From IMG/VR virus record IMGVR_UViG_3300031566_000363, positions 1 to 24,052 of that record: a stretch of DNA of 24,052 nucleotides, one strand, 5' to 3'. Position numbers and translations under genes: made by a program. Below are positions 12,279 to 19,094 of the stretch, one piece after another (positions within the stretch are counted from its first letter, which is position 1; each line of letters opens with the position of its first letter). The notes below the pieces were generated by a model. That model worked only from the letters and a program-made list of their open reading frames with translations. It did not search any database and was not told the origin of the DNA. The stretch comes from a virus.

Positions 12279-13550
12279 ATGAAAGACTATGCGGCGATAT
12301 ACGATTCCGAAAACGACGCTTCTTCGCTGGAACAAAAGTGGTATTTGAAGCAGGAAAGCGTTCGAGGTGTGCTAGCAGTCCCGACCGACACCGATTATTT
12401 TTATGCTTTGGAAGGCGGGACGATAGATTATTCCCAACCTTTTGACGAATCGCCTCAGAGATCCGGCAGGCATTTGAATAATATCGTGAAATCGAAAAAA
12501 ACTCTCTCCTGGGGATTCCAAACTTTTATCAATATCGATGAGGCGGTATCTCCTGGCGGGCCGACTGAAATCGATCAGGCCGTTCGTACTCTCTGGACAT
12601 CGCTAATGGGCAGAGAGTACGTCCGAGTCTCTGGCCCTGATCCATTTGACGGTCTCGAGTATAGTAATAACGTTGCACCTTCCACTTCTTTCTCTCTTTT
12701 TTCGGTCGTCGATAAATTCGCGCAGCAATCCAGAGGAAATTTTGTTCAAAGCGGTAACTTTAGTTTTCCTGGTGATGGGCAGGCCCAAATTGACTGGGCC
12801 GGAAACGGCAAGGACGCCTTAACCATCGGTCTCGCGAAGTCTGTCATTGATAATAACGCGGGCACCACCGTCACTGTCGGAGTCGGTGAAGGCCGCCAGA
12901 TGAAACCCTTGGGCTTGGTTATGATAATCAAAGCAGACGGCGTTACCAGGAGCACAGATAGCCTGAACGGAACCGCGCTTGTCGTCAAATCGATTGCTGG
13001 CGATGTTATCACTCTTGAGGACACAGGCGGATCGCCGCTAACTTTAGCGGACGCCGATGGCTCTGGCACTCCAGTTTATCTTGTTTACTATGAACCAGAA
13101 AATCCTATTGCAATTGATAACCCGATCGTCGGATTGCGCGGGCAATTTATAATCGACGGCCTGCCGCCTCAAAGCTGTGTTAGGAGTCTAACGGTCAATA
13201 TGACGAACGGTCATGAGCTAATTGATTATTGCGCGGGAGAAGACTCTCTCGGTGATAGCTTGTTCGTCCCAGGCGATCGTTTTCGCGCGGATGTCGAGCT
13301 TACGCTCAATATGAACACCCCGCTCGTTGCTTTCTTTAGGGACGTGGAGGAGTTTGTTTTCAAAGATATCGACTCCGCTCTCGGCGATGTGCTCGGAAGG
13401 CACTTTAGAATCCTACTGCCGAGGGTTATTTTCCCAGTGCCACCGATTCCAGTACCAGGATCGGGCAGTATACCAGTGACATTTGCAGGCGGTAAAGCAT
13501 TGCAGACGGCACTTGGAGCCGCCGACGAATGCCAACCTTCATTTAGATAA
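12279..13550 (+). CDS. Major tail protein (tail tube)
   Basis: The tube subunit of a long tail. The 423-residue product lies after the tail terminator gene and before the assembly chaperones, the standard place, and is followed by its own strong terminator, as expected for a protein needed in many copies. Its sequence is beta-rich. At about residues 188-275 there is an inserted module with VGEGRQMKPLGLVMII and ITLEDTGGSPLTLADADGSG, and the tube core resumes with GLRGQFIIDGLPPQSCVRSLTVNM. The length is greater than in small siphophages, so the extra module may project from the tail surface. The start follows GGGGA. No sheath gene is present, so the tail is inferred to be non-contractile. Confidence 0.78.
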   Translation: MKDYAAIYDSENDASSLEQKWYLKQESVRGVLAVPTDTDYFYALEGGTIDYSQPFDESPQRSGRHLNNIVKSKKTLSWGFQTFINIDEAVSPGGPTEIDQAVRTLWTSLMGREYVRVSGPDPFDGLEYSNNVAPSTSFSLFSVVDKFAQQSRGNFVQSGNFSFPGDGQAQIDWAGNGKDALTIGLAKSVIDNNAGTTVTVGVGEGRQMKPLGLVMIIKADGVTRSTDSLNGTALVVKSIAGDVITLEDTGGSPLTLADADGSGTPVYLVYYEPENPIAIDNPIVGLRGQFIIDGLPPQSCVRSLTVNMTNGHELIDYCAGEDSLGDSLFVPGDRFRADVELTLNMNTPLVAFFRDVEEFVFKDIDSALGDVLGRHFRILLPRVIFPVPPIPVPGSGSIPVTFAGGKALQTALGAADECQPSFR

Positions 13551-13564
13551 CGCGTTCGCGAGTT

Positions 13565-13617
13565 AAAATAGACTGAAGCCTGCGTGATTGGTAACATCAC
13601 GCAGGTTTTTCTATTTT
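13565..13617 (+). terminator. Strong rho-independent terminator after the major tail protein gene
   Basis: CCTGCGTGAT (13579-13588) and ATCACGCAGG (13596-13605) form a perfect 10-bp stem with a 7-base loop, followed by five T. The stem can extend through AAG/TTT pairs, and flanking AAAATAG (13565-13571) and CTATTTT (13611-13617) are also complementary, giving A/T tracts on both sides that could make it work in both directions. It separates the tail tube gene from the chaperone-tape measure unit. Confidence 0.92.
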
Positions 13618-13641
13618 ATAATCTAATCAGGAGCGGCTAAA

Positions 13642-14118
13642 ATGGCCTTTTTCGCAGACATGAGTGATGGAAAGATAAAAGTTATATCCCGCAGAGATCG
13701 AACGATTCAGGAAGTCACGCCGGAAGCATACGAGGCATACCTCGTTGACCTAGACGAATCTATTTTAGGGATCACTGAAGAAACTAAATGCACTCGATTT
13801 GTTTTGAGGAAGGTGCTCACTTATAAAGCACAATTGAAAGTGAAGAATGCGCAGGTCTCAATGGAAGACGGCGTTGTAAAACCTCAGTTATCGTTTATGA
13901 GCGAGGAGGTTCGACTGTCATTGATGGACATTGAAAACCCAGACGTGCCAGAAGATCATAAAAAATATTTGCTAACCTATAAACGCGAAAACGATGGTGG
14001 TGCGGGCTATAATTTGATGGCAATTCTGGAGTCGGCTGGTGTCGTCAACGACCTATACGCGGCTAAGGTCAAGGCAAACGAAGGCAATAAGCTAACCGAT
14101 ATTGATAAAAAAAAATAA
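13642..14118 (+). CDS. Tail assembly chaperone, upstream frame (lambda G-like)
   Basis: Chaperones of this position coat the tape measure protein while the tail tube polymerises. The 158-residue product is helical and mixed charged, with no sequence motif I can name; the call comes from its place between tail tube and tape measure genes and from its ending. The last codons are AAA AAA AAA TAA, a run of nine A just before the stop, and the -1 frame from that run leads straight into the next reading frame. The ATG follows AGGAG. As in lambda G/GT, most ribosomes would stop here. Confidence 0.75.
   Translation: MAFFADMSDGKIKVISRRDRTIQEVTPEAYEAYLVDLDESILGITEETKCTRFVLRKVLTYKAQLKVKNAQVSMEDGVVKPQLSFMSEEVRLSLMDIENPDVPEDHKKYLLTYKRENDGGAGYNLMAILESAGVVNDLYAAKVKANEGNKLTDIDKKK
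14107..14115 (+). promoter_or_regulatory. Slippery A9 run for a -1 programmed frameshift
   Basis: Nine A lie in frame as AAA AAA AAA directly before the TAA stop at 14116. Slipping back one base reads on as ATA ATC GCA TTG and enters the next frame without a stop; that frame is closed upstream by a TAA at 14106-14108, so it can only be entered at this run. The fused product would be about 303 residues. Bases 14146-14153 (CGCACTCA) and 14180-14187 (TGAGTGCG) form a perfect 8-bp stem downstream, farther away than usual for a stimulator. Frameshifting is inferred. Confidence 0.75.
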
Positions 14119-14552
14119 TCGCATTGATTGAGATCTCGTTTCTATCGCACTCATCAGCGGAAGCGAAGTCAAGGGGCTTTGAGTGCGCCGCCTGCCCCAA
14201 AAAAATCAAAAATTTAAGGCGGTGCGAGGAGCCACGGATGGATTTTACAAATGATGATGGTGCTATCTGGCCGATTCAAATGTCTCCCGGCGGGGCTCTT
14301 TATTCTTTCTGTCCAGGTAAGGCGACATGGGATCATATGGCCAGAGAGGTTTATGGTATTCTGGTGATGTCGATGGAGATGGGTTGTTTATATAACGCTG
14401 GCGGCATTATAAATCAGCCGACGTGGTATTTGGATCTCATGTCTTTCTTCGGGCCGATATATGATAAACTAAAATTCACCAGCAAGGCGCGGATGGTGCT
14501 CGGTGATGGCAAAAGCACGAAGACACCACCATCATTAAACCGAAGGCATTGA
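14109..14552 (+). CDS. Tail assembly chaperone, downstream frame (lambda T-like, made by frameshift)
   Basis: The frame is open from 14109 to the stop at 14550. The first possible start is TTG at 14124 (142 residues), which lacks a ribosome binding site, so I read it as the extension of the upstream chaperone by -1 frameshift. An ATG at 14238 preceded by GAGGAG could also give a short product of about 104 residues. Counting from the TTG, the sequence has four cysteines (C21, C24, C34, C63; ECAAC, RRC, SFCPG) that could bind a metal, then a helical region (REVYGILVMSMEMGCLYNAGG). A Cys-rich T segment preceding the tape measure gene is consistent with chaperones of other tailed phages, but I do not know the function of the cysteines. 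Confidence 0.72.
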   Translation, partial: KKIIALIEISFLSHSSAEAKSRGFECAACPKKIKNLRRCEEPRMDFTNDDGAIWPIQMSPGGALYSFCPGKATWDHMAREVYGILVMSMEMGCLYNAGGIINQPTWYLDLMSFFGPIYDKLKFTSKARMVLGDGKSTKTPPSLNRRH

Positions 14553-14561
14553 GGATAACCA

Positions 14562-17500
14562 ATGGCAGATCGAGAATTTAAAGTTGGAATCATCCTTGAT
14601 GCAAGCGGTGTGATTAAAGGTGTCGAGGACGCCGATGGTGCGATAGTAAAATTTACCAAAAGCCTTGAAGATTCGAAAACTGCTCTGGTCGAAACCGCAG
14701 ACGACTCGACAAATCTAGGCGATGCTCAAGTTGAGATGGCCGGAAAAACAGAAATATCTCACGCAGCAATCACAGCTTTAAATCAGGCACTAGAAATAGG
14801 TAAAAAAGCTTACGAAGCAATCAGCGGCGCAATCTCTAGCACGACAGAAGTCTATTCTATACAGGAGATCGCGGAGCAAGGGGTCGCGAACGCTTTAAAA
14901 TTAACGAATTCATTTACCGAGACAGGTTTGCAAGGCTGGAAGGACTGGGCAAGTGAATTGCAAAACGTTACTACCACAGGCGACGAGGCGACACTCGAGC
15001 TTATTAAAATGTCGAAAGCTCTCGGCCTTACCGACGAACAAACGAAAACATTAATTACGGCATCGGTCGATCTTTCTGCGGTGACTGGTAAAGGTGTGAA
15101 GTCGAGTTTTAAGCTTTTGCAGGGCACCTATTCCGGTGTCGCGACTTCTCTTGAAAAATTGGGGCTCAATGTAAAATCGCTTACCGTCGATCAAATAAAA
15201 TCTGGAGCTGGCGTCGATTTAGTCGCTGAAAAATTTAAGGGATTAGCCGAAGCGCAGACTAAAACATTTACCGGAGCCAGCATTCAGGCAGCGAATGCCT
15301 TCGGCGATGTCCTCGAGGAGATTGGAAAACTATTTGTCGAGGTTTTAGATCTTACTGGCAGAGGTCATGCGATGACTCAATTTTGGGTTGAAGTTGGCAA
15401 GGCTGTCGGGCAAGTGAGAGAAGCAGTCCTGGTCGCTAAAGATGTGATGATTGGATTTATAGAATTGCCGTGGTCTAAATTAACGACTGCGGCGAGCCTT
15501 ATGGGAGGTTTAGCGATTGCAATTGTTGCGGTGCAAATCGCGACGGGGACTGCCAACGCAAACATGATCGCATTTATTTTAAATATTGTGAGATCGGGAG
15601 CCGCCGCGTTAACCACTGGCGCGCAATACGCGCTACTAGCAGTCAAGGCGGGGCTTATAGCGGCAGGCGTTGCAACCGTGGTTATAGCGGTTGATCTACT
15701 AGTCAGAAATTTAGATAACCTTTCCGGCCTAGCAGACGTTGTCTGGAATGTTTTCAAAAAAGCATTCGCTAATATGGCAGGCGTCGTCACTTCGATGATT
15801 GGCGAGATGGGGACTGCCCTTGCGGACTTTGCAAAGGGAGCAGGGCTCTCGGGTTTAGGTGAGGCCCTTGGGAGCGCAGCGCAATCCGCATCAAATACCG
15901 CTATTGAGCAATTTGATATCGCTTCAGGGCTCCAAGTAAAAATCGATAATTTAAGTAAAAATATTGATACGGGTTTTGCTGGAGATATCGCGAAGAAATT
16001 AGACGATGCCTTCAATAGCATCAAAGTACCAGACATAGCCGCAAAGGCCGCAGGCGGCGGTGGCGGTGGTGGTGGTGGTGGTGGTGGATCATTCCCAGTG
16101 GTCGGCCCCGCTGCGGCAGGCGGCGGAGCGGCTGTAAAAGAAAAGGAAAAAGAGAAGGCGATAGTTGAAAAAATATCGGAAGCTCAAAAAAATCTCAACG
16201 ACCTTTTAAAAAACCAAACTGGAATCCAAACCACCATCAACGAATTCGGCAAATCAAACGCAGAATTGCTAAACCTTAGATTGGCAAGCCGACTGCAGGA
16301 GATCGACGCGATCGGAGCGGCGGCGGGAGCACAGGGATCACTCGCTGTTGCTGAAGCAAAATCGAACGAAATCGAATTGGCAAAATTAAAATTTGCAGAA
16401 ATGCAAAAGGCCGTGATCGATGATTTAAAAGATGATGTTCAATCGCTAAATATGAACGCTCTGAATGGAGTCGAGTTAGCGCAAGAAAAACTTAGAATCG
16501 ATCTGGAAGCTTTAAATTTAAAAGAAGATGAATTGGCGAAAGCTAACATGCTTACAGCCGAAGCAGAAAAGCTTTTAGATGCGAAGCGAAAAGCAATCGA
16601 AGCTGGATCAGCAACCGATATAAAAAAGATCGAATCCGACAAAGCGGCGGCAGGAGACAAGCCAGGGTCGGCGGCACCATCAGTTTCATTTATTAATGAA
16701 GCGCAGCTCGCGACAATTCAGGACACGTTCGGGGCCACGACAACCGCGACAGTGGGGGCCATTGGTGGAGCGGCGGCAGCTTTCGCGGGGCCAGTCGCCG
16801 CTGCAGGGGCCATTATAGGCATGGCCAGCGGGATTATAGACGCGGTCCTAAATATCCCTGCAAAGCTTGCCGAGGTTTTTAATAAGCTAACGGATTTCGG
16901 CCCTAATTTAGCGAATGCGATTAAGGATTTACTGAAGTCTATTGTGGGTATGGTTTCTAGTCTGATTCCAAATCTTCTGCAAGGTCTTTTTGACATAATA
17001 ATGTCTGTTTTGGACATGTTTGCGACATCGCTGCCAGACGCTTTCGTTTCGCTCGCAAATAAAATCCCTGAGATGCTCCAGAAATTTATCGACGCCGCTC
17101 CTGAGATGGCTCAAAAACTTATCCAGGGCCTTTTCAAAATGAATCCGACGACACTCGTTACCAAATTTATGGTTTCGATAATTAAGTCGCTGCCAAAACT
17201 AATAACATCTCTGGTGGATTCGATCCCTTTAATCATAAATGAATTTATCACCGGATTTATGGAGGGCATCGATGAGATGGTCACGATGTTCGTCGACCTT
17301 TTTATCAATGGTGGTGTGGAAAAAATAATTAAGGCGGTCATCGTCGCGCTGGCCGAAGGTGTTAAGAAAATATTCAAGGGTATTTTTGGCGGATTCAAAT
17401 TACCAAAACTACCACCGTTAGAAGTACCACCAGCACTTACAGAGCTTCCCGCGAAACTAGGAAATGCGGTTAAAAATATCGCGACCGGAATCAAGGCGGG

Positions 17501-19094
17501 AGGTTCTGATGTATTTTCCGTTCTCGATGTCTCGAAGGTAAAGTCGGCGAAGGCGATCGATAAAACTATTGGCGATGCCACGCGCCAAGCGACTAAAACG
17601 TTCGAAAATGGGTTTGCCCGCATCGGGAAAAAATTAAGTTCGCTCTGGGATAAACTTAGAGAAGTATGGCTCTGGGTTTGGGGTTTGCTTTCAGGATTGT
17701 GGGAGGGCATAAAAATGATTTTTAAAATAATCGTCGATGCCCTCCAAATACTTTGGGACGGTATCAAGGCAATTTGGGACGTGGTGGTGCAAGCATTGCA
17801 ATTGCTGTGGGATGGAATAGAGGCAATTTGGGACGTGGTGGTGCAAGCGTTGCAATTGCTCTGGGACGGCCTACAAGCGATCTGGGACGTTGTAATTTTA
17901 GCGGTGCAAGCACTATGGGACGGGCTAAAGGTAATCTGGGACGCCGTTGTACTGGCCTTACAAGGGCTTTGGGATTCTCTAAAGGAAATCTTTGCTAAGG
18001 TGTGGGAAAAATTCACGGAGGTCATTGCGTCGCTCGGCGAGGTTTTTGGAAAGCTCTGGACTTTTATTACCGAAGGTGCTCAAAAAATCCTAGACGTGAT
18101 AATGAAAATCCCAGGTTTATGGATTCAGGGAGCGACTGCGATTCTAAACGTCATCACGCAGATCCCTGGCAAGATCGGCGAAGGCGTTACCAATCTCACA
18201 AATGCGATTTCCTCTATCCCTGGAAAATTCGCCGAGGGAGCAAATACCGTCCTATCGAAATTCGGAGAAATTGGCGAAAAGGTTTTTACTCAGTTACGCG
18301 ATGCTTTCAATAAACTGAATCCTGCAAATCTTTTAGGAAAGATGTTTGATGTCGGCCCTAGTCAGGGAAAGGTAGAAGGTTTATTAGGAATTGATATTCC
18401 GGTGATTCCCTTTGCGCGCGGCGGTATTGTCCCAGGAACCTCTCCATTTTCAGGCGATAATAAAAAGAACGACACAGTCGCGGCCCTACTCTCGCCAGGG
18501 GAAGCGGTAATCCCTAACTCGGTCATGTCCGATCCAAATATAGCTCGGTTAGTAAGCTCGATTATGGACGGACAAGTGAAATTTGCTTACGGCGGCCTGA
18601 AGCCCCCTTCAATTAAGATCAGTGCTCCTAAAATATCAGCTCCGAAGTTACCATCAGTTAATGACATCAAAAAAATGAATCCTGCAGATTTAATAAAAAG
18701 TGTAACGGATAATTTAGAGGCCCTAAAAAATATGGCCTTTGGTGATGTTTGGAGTCTTTTTAAAGACGAGGTATTTAAACAAGCGCAAAACTCAGTCATG
18801 AGCCTAATTAAACAAGGGGCAGGATCATTTGATAACGGCGGCGTCGTTCCTGGTGATGGGATCGGGATGCTCCATCAAAATGAAATTGTGCTCCCAACAA
18901 ATATCATCGATAAATTAATGGGAATTCAAAAACCATCGGCGGCACCAGTCACGAATTTAACCCTAAATGCAACGATCGCAATTGCTGGCGATGGCAGGGC
19001 TACGGGGAAAAAAGTTATCGATGAGATGTTTGTCGAGCTTCGAAAGCGAAGTGCTAATCAGAAAATCATGTTTCAGTCAGGACTAATAGCATGA
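14562..19094 (+). CDS. Tail tape measure protein
   Basis: This very long protein sets tail length and exits first during DNA ejection. At 1510 residues, using the usual 1.5 Angstrom per residue, the tail would be about 225 nm. Seen features in order are a helical N-terminus, hydrophobic stretches at about 310-375, a run of 12 Gly at 498-509, a coiled-coil region around 535-675, another hydrophobic stretch at about 728-775, and seven 18-residue Trp repeats at 1028-1153. Two Gly-Gly-x-Val-Pro-Gly modules, ARGGIVPG near 1286 with LLSPGEAVIPNSV and NGGVVPG near 1426 with LHQNEIVLPTNI, are typical of the C-terminal part of this family. No lytic domain is visible. The ATG follows GAGGA; the stop overlaps the next gene (ATGA). 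Confidence 0.95.
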   Translation: MADREFKVGIILDASGVIKGVEDADGAIVKFTKSLEDSKTALVETADDSTNLGDAQVEMAGKTEISHAAITALNQALEIGKKAYEAISGAISSTTEVYSIQEIAEQGVANALKLTNSFTETGLQGWKDWASELQNVTTTGDEATLELIKMSKALGLTDEQTKTLITASVDLSAVTGKGVKSSFKLLQGTYSGVATSLEKLGLNVKSLTVDQIKSGAGVDLVAEKFKGLAEAQTKTFTGASIQAANAFGDVLEEIGKLFVEVLDLTGRGHAMTQFWVEVGKAVGQVREAVLVAKDVMIGFIELPWSKLTTAASLMGGLAIAIVAVQIATGTANANMIAFILNIVRSGAAALTTGAQYALLAVKAGLIAAGVATVVIAVDLLVRNLDNLSGLADVVWNVFKKAFANMAGVVTSMIGEMGTALADFAKGAGLSGLGEALGSAAQSASNTAIEQFDIASGLQVKIDNLSKNIDTGFAGDIAKKLDDAFNSIKVPDIAAKAAGGGGGGGGGGGGSFPVVGPAAAGGGAAVKEKEKEKAIVEKISEAQKNLNDLLKNQTGIQTTINEFGKSNAELLNLRLASRLQEIDAIGAAAGAQGSLAVAEAKSNEIELAKLKFAEMQKAVIDDLKDDVQSLNMNALNGVELAQEKLRIDLEALNLKEDELAKANMLTAEAEKLLDAKRKAIEAGSATDIKKIESDKAAAGDKPGSAAPSVSFINEAQLATIQDTFGATTTATVGAIGGAAAAFAGPVAAAGAIIGMASGIIDAVLNIPAKLAEVFNKLTDFGPNLANAIKDLLKSIVGMVSSLIPNLLQGLFDIIMSVLDMFATSLPDAFVSLANKIPEMLQKFIDAAPEMAQKLIQGLFKMNPTTLVTKFMVSIIKSLPKLITSLVDSIPLIINEFITGFMEGIDEMVTMFVDLFINGGVEKIIKAVIVALAEGVKKIFKGIFGGFKLPKLPPLEVPPALTELPAKLGNAVKNIATGIKAGGSDVFSVLDVSKVKSAKAIDKTIGDATRQATKTFENGFARIGKKLSSLWDKLREVWLWVWGLLSGLWEGIKMIFKIIVDALQILWDGIKAIWDVVVQALQLLWDGIEAIWDVVVQALQLLWDGLQAIWDVVILAVQALWDGLKVIWDAVVLALQGLWDSLKEIFAKVWEKFTEVIASLGEVFGKLWTFITEGAQKILDVIMKIPGLWIQGATAILNVITQIPGKIGEGVTNLTNAISSIPGKFAEGANTVLSKFGEIGEKVFTQLRDAFNKLNPANLLGKMFDVGPSQGKVEGLLGIDIPVIPFARGGIVPGTSPFSGDNKKNDTVAALLSPGEAVIPNSVMSDPNIARLVSSIMDGQVKFAYGGLKPPSIKISAPKISAPKLPSVNDIKKMNPADLIKSVTDNLEALKNMAFGDVWSLFKDEVFKQAQNSVMSLIKQGAGSFDNGGVVPGDGIGMLHQNEIVLPTNIIDKLMGIQKPSAAPVTNLTLNATIAIAGDGRATGKKVIDEMFVELRKRSANQKIMFQSGLIA
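16053..16088 (+). repeat. GGT/GGC triplet run coding 12 glycines
   Basis: Twelve consecutive Gly codons, mainly GGT, lie within the tape measure gene and are followed by a Pro/Ala/Gly linker. The run probably separates two rigid helical sections. Triplet slippage here would change length without breaking the frame. Confidence 0.9.
17643..18020 (+). repeat. Seven tandem 54-base repeats (18 residues each) in the tape measure gene
   Basis: The unit reads LWDGIKAIWDVVVQALQL with Leu-Trp at positions 1-2 and a second aromatic residue at 9 in most copies. The copies start at 17643, 17697, 17751, 17805, 17859, 17913 and 17967. The copies at 17751 and 17805 match in 48 of 54 bases, including 28 in a row, which points to a recent duplication; the outer copies have diverged. 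Eighteen residues equal five helical turns, so each copy repeats the same hydrophobic face. Confidence 0.88.

Follow-up and report, generated by a model that had tools for sequence, protein, structure and literature searches.

A predicted −1 ribosomal frameshift at a conserved A run in a tail chaperone-like gene pair of environmental phages

We analysed a stretch of 24,052 bases of viral DNA (IMG/VR record IMGVR_UViG_3300031566_000363, hereafter the window), which holds the structural part of a tailed-phage genome, from the large terminase to the tail genes. Two overlapping ORFs in this region are very probably joined by programmed −1 ribosomal frameshifting at a run of nine A residues (Table 1), a prediction made from the sequence. 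The analysis revealed a conserved shift site, a conserved frame relation and a conserved C-terminal coding sequence, and what we infer is that slippage occurs, how efficient it is and that the products act as chaperones. The pair would represent a widespread, unannotated protein family of environmental phages whose coding relies on a conserved frameshift at an A run, and this reading would set the gene model right where a standard gene caller lists two separate or truncated genes.

Table 1. Features of the window that bear on the predicted frameshift
Feature	Position	Strand	Remarks
Probable major tail protein	12279..13550	+	phrog_290 'minor tail protein', E 1.4e-4 (weak match)
Terminator-like hairpin and U tract, gap between tail-tube gene and ORF1	13575..13619	+	z −7.9
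ORF1, G-like protein, product of normal termination	13642..14118	+	158 aa
A9 run with slip site	14107..14115	+	longest A run in the window
Slippery heptamer A_AAA_AAA, zero frame	14109..14115	+	in-frame A_AAA_AAZ in 61/61 −1 relatives
ORF2, T-like domain, −1 frame	14109..14552	+	145 aa from codon 14115–14117 on
Possible downstream hairpin	14132..14170	+	begins 17 nt after the heptamer; weak in the window phage
Second, longer predicted stem	14175..14233	+	about 60 nt downstream; 14116–14240 folds with z −2.29
Four invariant Cys codons	14184..14312	+	at 14184, 14193, 14223 and 14310 (C26, C29, C39, C68)
AGGAG and ATG 14238, apparent internal start	14227..14240	+	AGGAG at 14227–14231
Probable tape measure protein	14562..19094	+	1510 aa; from length and position

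Layout of the gene pair and predicted mechanism

The pair is flanked by a probable tail-tube gene and an ORF of tape-measure size, the position of a G/GT-type pair; the latter ORF had no match in Pfam. ORF1 ends in zero frame with GAT AAA AAA AAA TAA (stop at 14116–14118), as an earlier sequence-only reading had reported with coordinates that all hold, and the second frame was likewise found to lie exactly in −1, up to 14552. Upstream, the ORF2 frame is closed by the TAA at 14106–14108; this codon had been correctly located but described as directly preceding the run, whereas it consists of a T and the first two A residues of the run and therefore overlaps it. Read in zero frame to 14115 and resumed at 14115, the fused frame is open and codes for 303 aa, in agreement with the fusion of about 303 residues that had been proposed.

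According to the predicted mechanism, the majority of ribosomes would stop at the TAA of ORF1 and release the 158-aa G-like protein. In a minority, the lysyl-tRNAs on AAA AAA at 14110–14115 would slip back one base and re-pair on AAA AAA at 14109–14114, and these ribosomes would go on at ATA (14115–14117) to produce the 303-aa fusion with the Cys4 domain of ORF2. By analogy with lambda, in which gpG and gpGT link the tape measure and tail-tube proteins (PMC5009743), the short form may serve as a coat on the tape measure protein and the fusion may bring in tail-tube subunits. A-run cassettes have been found to shift experimentally, with 6–7% frameshifting in two tested phage tail chaperone genes (PMC3711429).

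Conservation of the slip site

The heptamer by itself is weak evidence, since 16 in-frame A_AAA_AA sites are present among the ORFs of the window; it is conservation across 61 distinct relatives that places the slip site above chance. Scanning with the single ORF1 and ORF2 sequences yielded no relatives; these were reached through the capsid protein and then by alignments. The first one found (L004) has 51–56% protein identity to the ORF1 and ORF2 products (51% for ORF1) and an identical GATAAAAAAAAATA block at the run, beyond which the DNA diverges and the −1-frame protein is kept, including the residues K-K-I-x-A-L-I-E, which span the run and the codons directly behind it. A five-sequence alignment scan of viral contigs gave 74 contigs; once the window and the previously found loci are added and a 90% protein identity level is applied, these amount to 63 distinct sequences.

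ORF1 and ORF2 are split into two frames in all 63 distinct homologous pairs. The conservation of the slippery run in related phages, which the sequence-only reading had proposed as a check, was borne out: in 61 of the 63, ORF2 is in −1, as in G/GT-type pairs, the junction carries an in-frame A_AAA_AAZ (last codon AAA in 55, AAG in three and AAC in three) and the protein after the run is retained; the fused frame is open in all 61. These counts bear on whether the split could be an artefact of assembly or sequencing, with a single fused gene broken up by an A run miscounted by one base; homopolymers are error-prone and no second contig covers the exact site, but the split goes the same way in 61 distinct homologues, an in-frame fusion occurs in none (the ORF2 frame reaches at most 67 codons into ORF1) and the frame relation is constant while the run length varies, so that such an error is scarcely credible.

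Codon usage at the slip site differs from that of the surrounding gene. The slip-site Lys codons of the 61 distinct relatives comprise 116 AAA and 3 AAG, as against 442 AAA and 416 AAG in the ORF1 bodies (naive binomial p of about 2e-29, a value that ignores relatedness and should not be taken literally). In the fused codon alignment, both slip-site Lys columns are AAA in every row with Lys there; the commonest codon of the 104 other conserved columns reaches at most 79%.

The run itself ranges from A6 to A9 among the 61 −1 relatives, with at least 18 changes of length on the tree, the heptamer being kept. This variation bears on the choice between ribosomal slippage and transcriptional slippage, in which RNA polymerase would add one A or drop two within A9, giving a single-frame mRNA for the same protein or for one that is a Lys shorter. 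Nine A residues are long enough for the polymerase, since slippage on runs of eight or more is documented, including that on 9 A's in the dnaX gene of Thermus thermophilus (PMC3711429), and A8 or A9 is found in 53 of the 61 relatives; the other eight have A6–A7, below the usual length (PMC3711429), so a homopolymer of about eight or more is present in the window but not family-wide. The tree also has at least six changes between short and long runs, all of which keep the phase needed for tandem ribosomal slippage, an argument that is weak on its own because a run of A8–A9 can hold the heptamer whatever the phase. Although A9 by itself permits both processes, the variation in run length from A6 to A9 favours ribosomal slippage, which is not proven for the window phage, and we consider transcriptional slippage unlikely.

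Start codons and RNA structure around the site

Protein conservation already sets in with the first codons 3′ of the run, ahead of any start codon that the relatives share, and no start belonging to ORF2 itself is conserved, as in G/GT-type pairs: none of ATG, GTG and TTG precedes the first Cys in 28 of the 61 relatives, and ATG is missing there in 43. ORF2 is thus very improbable as an ordinary separate gene, translated from TTG 14124 or ATG 14238 by reinitiation or from its own ribosome binding site. The sequence-only reading had named a TTG without a ribosome binding site as the only early start. TTG 14124 indeed has no Shine-Dalgarno-like sequence, and it reads CTG in the closest relative, but the good-looking AGGAG six bases before the ATG at 14238 had been left out, and in some relatives an ATG overlaps the ORF1 stop, both of which could speak for a separate gene. 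We rejected ATG 14238 as the start: its column contains Met in only 4 of the 61 sequences and W or E in 42, and initiation there would remove three of the four invariant Cys residues, which lie upstream of it. The AGGAG is judged, from the codons that it covers, to be a by-product of the Glu-Glu codons in a conserved RRCEE stretch. A separate gene would also leave the 100% AAA codons at the slip site unexplained. A conserved start together with an unconserved A run had been named as the outcome that would count against a fusion; we found the opposite, a conserved run and start codons that are not conserved.

Across the family, predicted RNA stability has a localised peak 0–80 nt downstream of the slip site, which the mechanism of transcriptional slippage does not require. 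The mean z of 90-nt segments is −1.70 at offset 0, compared with −0.9 to 0.2 at flanking positions that do not overlap it, and z values below −1 were obtained downstream in 41 of the 61 relatives versus 25% of control windows. The region of the peak is a poorly conserved linker, and structure is hence easier to evolve there. The fold of the nearest hairpin in the window phage (14116–14180) is unremarkable (z −0.71). A Shine-Dalgarno-like stimulator upstream of the slip site was detected in 26 of the 61 relatives versus 38 of 122 controls, which is not convincing, and none is present in the window. The weak hairpin and the lack of an upstream stimulator are points against −1 ribosomal frameshifting here, as is the finding that A_AAA_AAA shifts less readily than A_AAA_AAG in E. 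coli (PMC5009743), a bacterium that may not be the host of the window phage.

The terminator-like hairpin between the tail-tube gene and ORF1 has similar counterparts at the same place in 39 of the 61 relatives versus 18 of 243 control stretches. It may act as an attenuator, lowering chaperone expression relative to the tail-tube protein.

Protein family and comparison with known systems

The ORF1 and ORF2 proteins had no convincing match by sequence in Pfam, PHROGs or the PDB, and no homologue was identified in the named phages searched, which gave no or non-significant matches, or in the bacterial and archaeal genome contigs searched. AlphaFold2 models of both proteins were confident (pLDDT 86 for ORF1, 88 for ORF2; the ORF1 alignment, A6, has 57 rows). 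The top PDB fold match for ORF1 was the HK97 chaperone 2ob9, which was not significant (E 2.4), and the only strong viral structure matches were uncharacterised proteins of uncultured phages, apparently, from the models, members of the same family. Of two BFVD entries, A0A6J5PLL9 and A0A6J5PJA4, one corresponds to ORF1 and the other to a part of ORF2 (only 92 aa are matched), which suggests that the fusion has been missed in public annotation. The family with its Cys4 domain appears to be unannotated in the libraries searched. The four Cys residues of the T-like domain, invariant in 61 sequences, probably form a metal-binding site, as judged from their pattern of conservation.

G/GT-type tail chaperones are highly diverged, and missing similarity to characterised chaperones therefore does not exclude membership. 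From position and gene architecture, we infer that the pair has a tail assembly chaperone role. The gene order recurs in the relatives, with an ORF of about 420 aa in the place of the probable major tail protein in most of them, then the ORF1/ORF2 pair, and finally a tape-measure-like ORF of very great length (in 62 of 63 it is either long or runs off the contig). The arrangement by position was thus rightly likened to lambda G/GT in the sequence-only reading, as was the slip site rightly set apart as pure A. As in lambda, two overlapping ORFs lie between the tail-tube and tape measure genes, the slip site ends the first ORF, the shift is −1 and the T-like domain has no start of its own. In contrast to lambda, the site is A_AAA_AAZ rather than GGGAAAG and the T-like domain carries the Cys4 motif, and there is no detectable sequence kinship between the two.

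The −1 frameshift conserved among dsDNA phages is credited to Xu, Hendrix and Duda 2004, as cited in PMC6256562 and reviewed in PMC5009743. Tail chaperone genes with a slip site on an A run have also been reported before, so the mechanism is known. The same heptamer class is found at the same gene position in Paenibacillus larvae phages (AAAAAAA, PMC6256562), in Acinetobacter phage Loki (AAAAAAC, PMC5313236) and in the haloarchaeal virus HCTV-2 (A_AAA_AAC, PMC5009743), a likeness of heptamer class and gene position and not of protein homology. The Paenibacillus and Loki sites are predictions at the level of annotation, whereas conservation was tested here over 61 diverged sequences. Tandem lysyl-tRNA slippage on A runs is shared with the unrelated genes of E. 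coli dnaX (A_AAA_AAG) and magnesium chelatase (A_AAA_AAR), and poly-A cassettes in that work gave 10–63% frameshifting (PMC3711429, PMC5009743).

The +1 arrangement was found in only two sequences, L012/L083 and L081, which are 60–61% identical to each other. In these, ORF2 lies in +1 at UCR_AAA_AGU (L012:4994–5008, L081:3994–4008), and the ten residues before the junction (GGSVSEDSKS) and the five after it (KVRAW) are identical in both. A single tRNA-Lys, next to AGU, would move from AAA onto the AAA that overlaps it in +1, joining the frames. A −2 shift was considered for L012 and L081 and rejected, as re-pairing would be poor and +1 appears to fit better. We tentatively propose, as a reading that is slightly less likely than not, that the direction of frameshifting has switched within one homologous family, and that its T-like domain is a metal-binding chaperone domain absent from the libraries searched. 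With its natural A6–A9 runs and the +1 branch, the set of 61 sequences constitutes a panel for the effect of slip site and RNA structure on the product ratio. Another branch (L045, L048 and L060) has S-[IL]-T-E-K inserted between the slip site, an A9 run, and the domain, which puts the slip site 18 nt further upstream.
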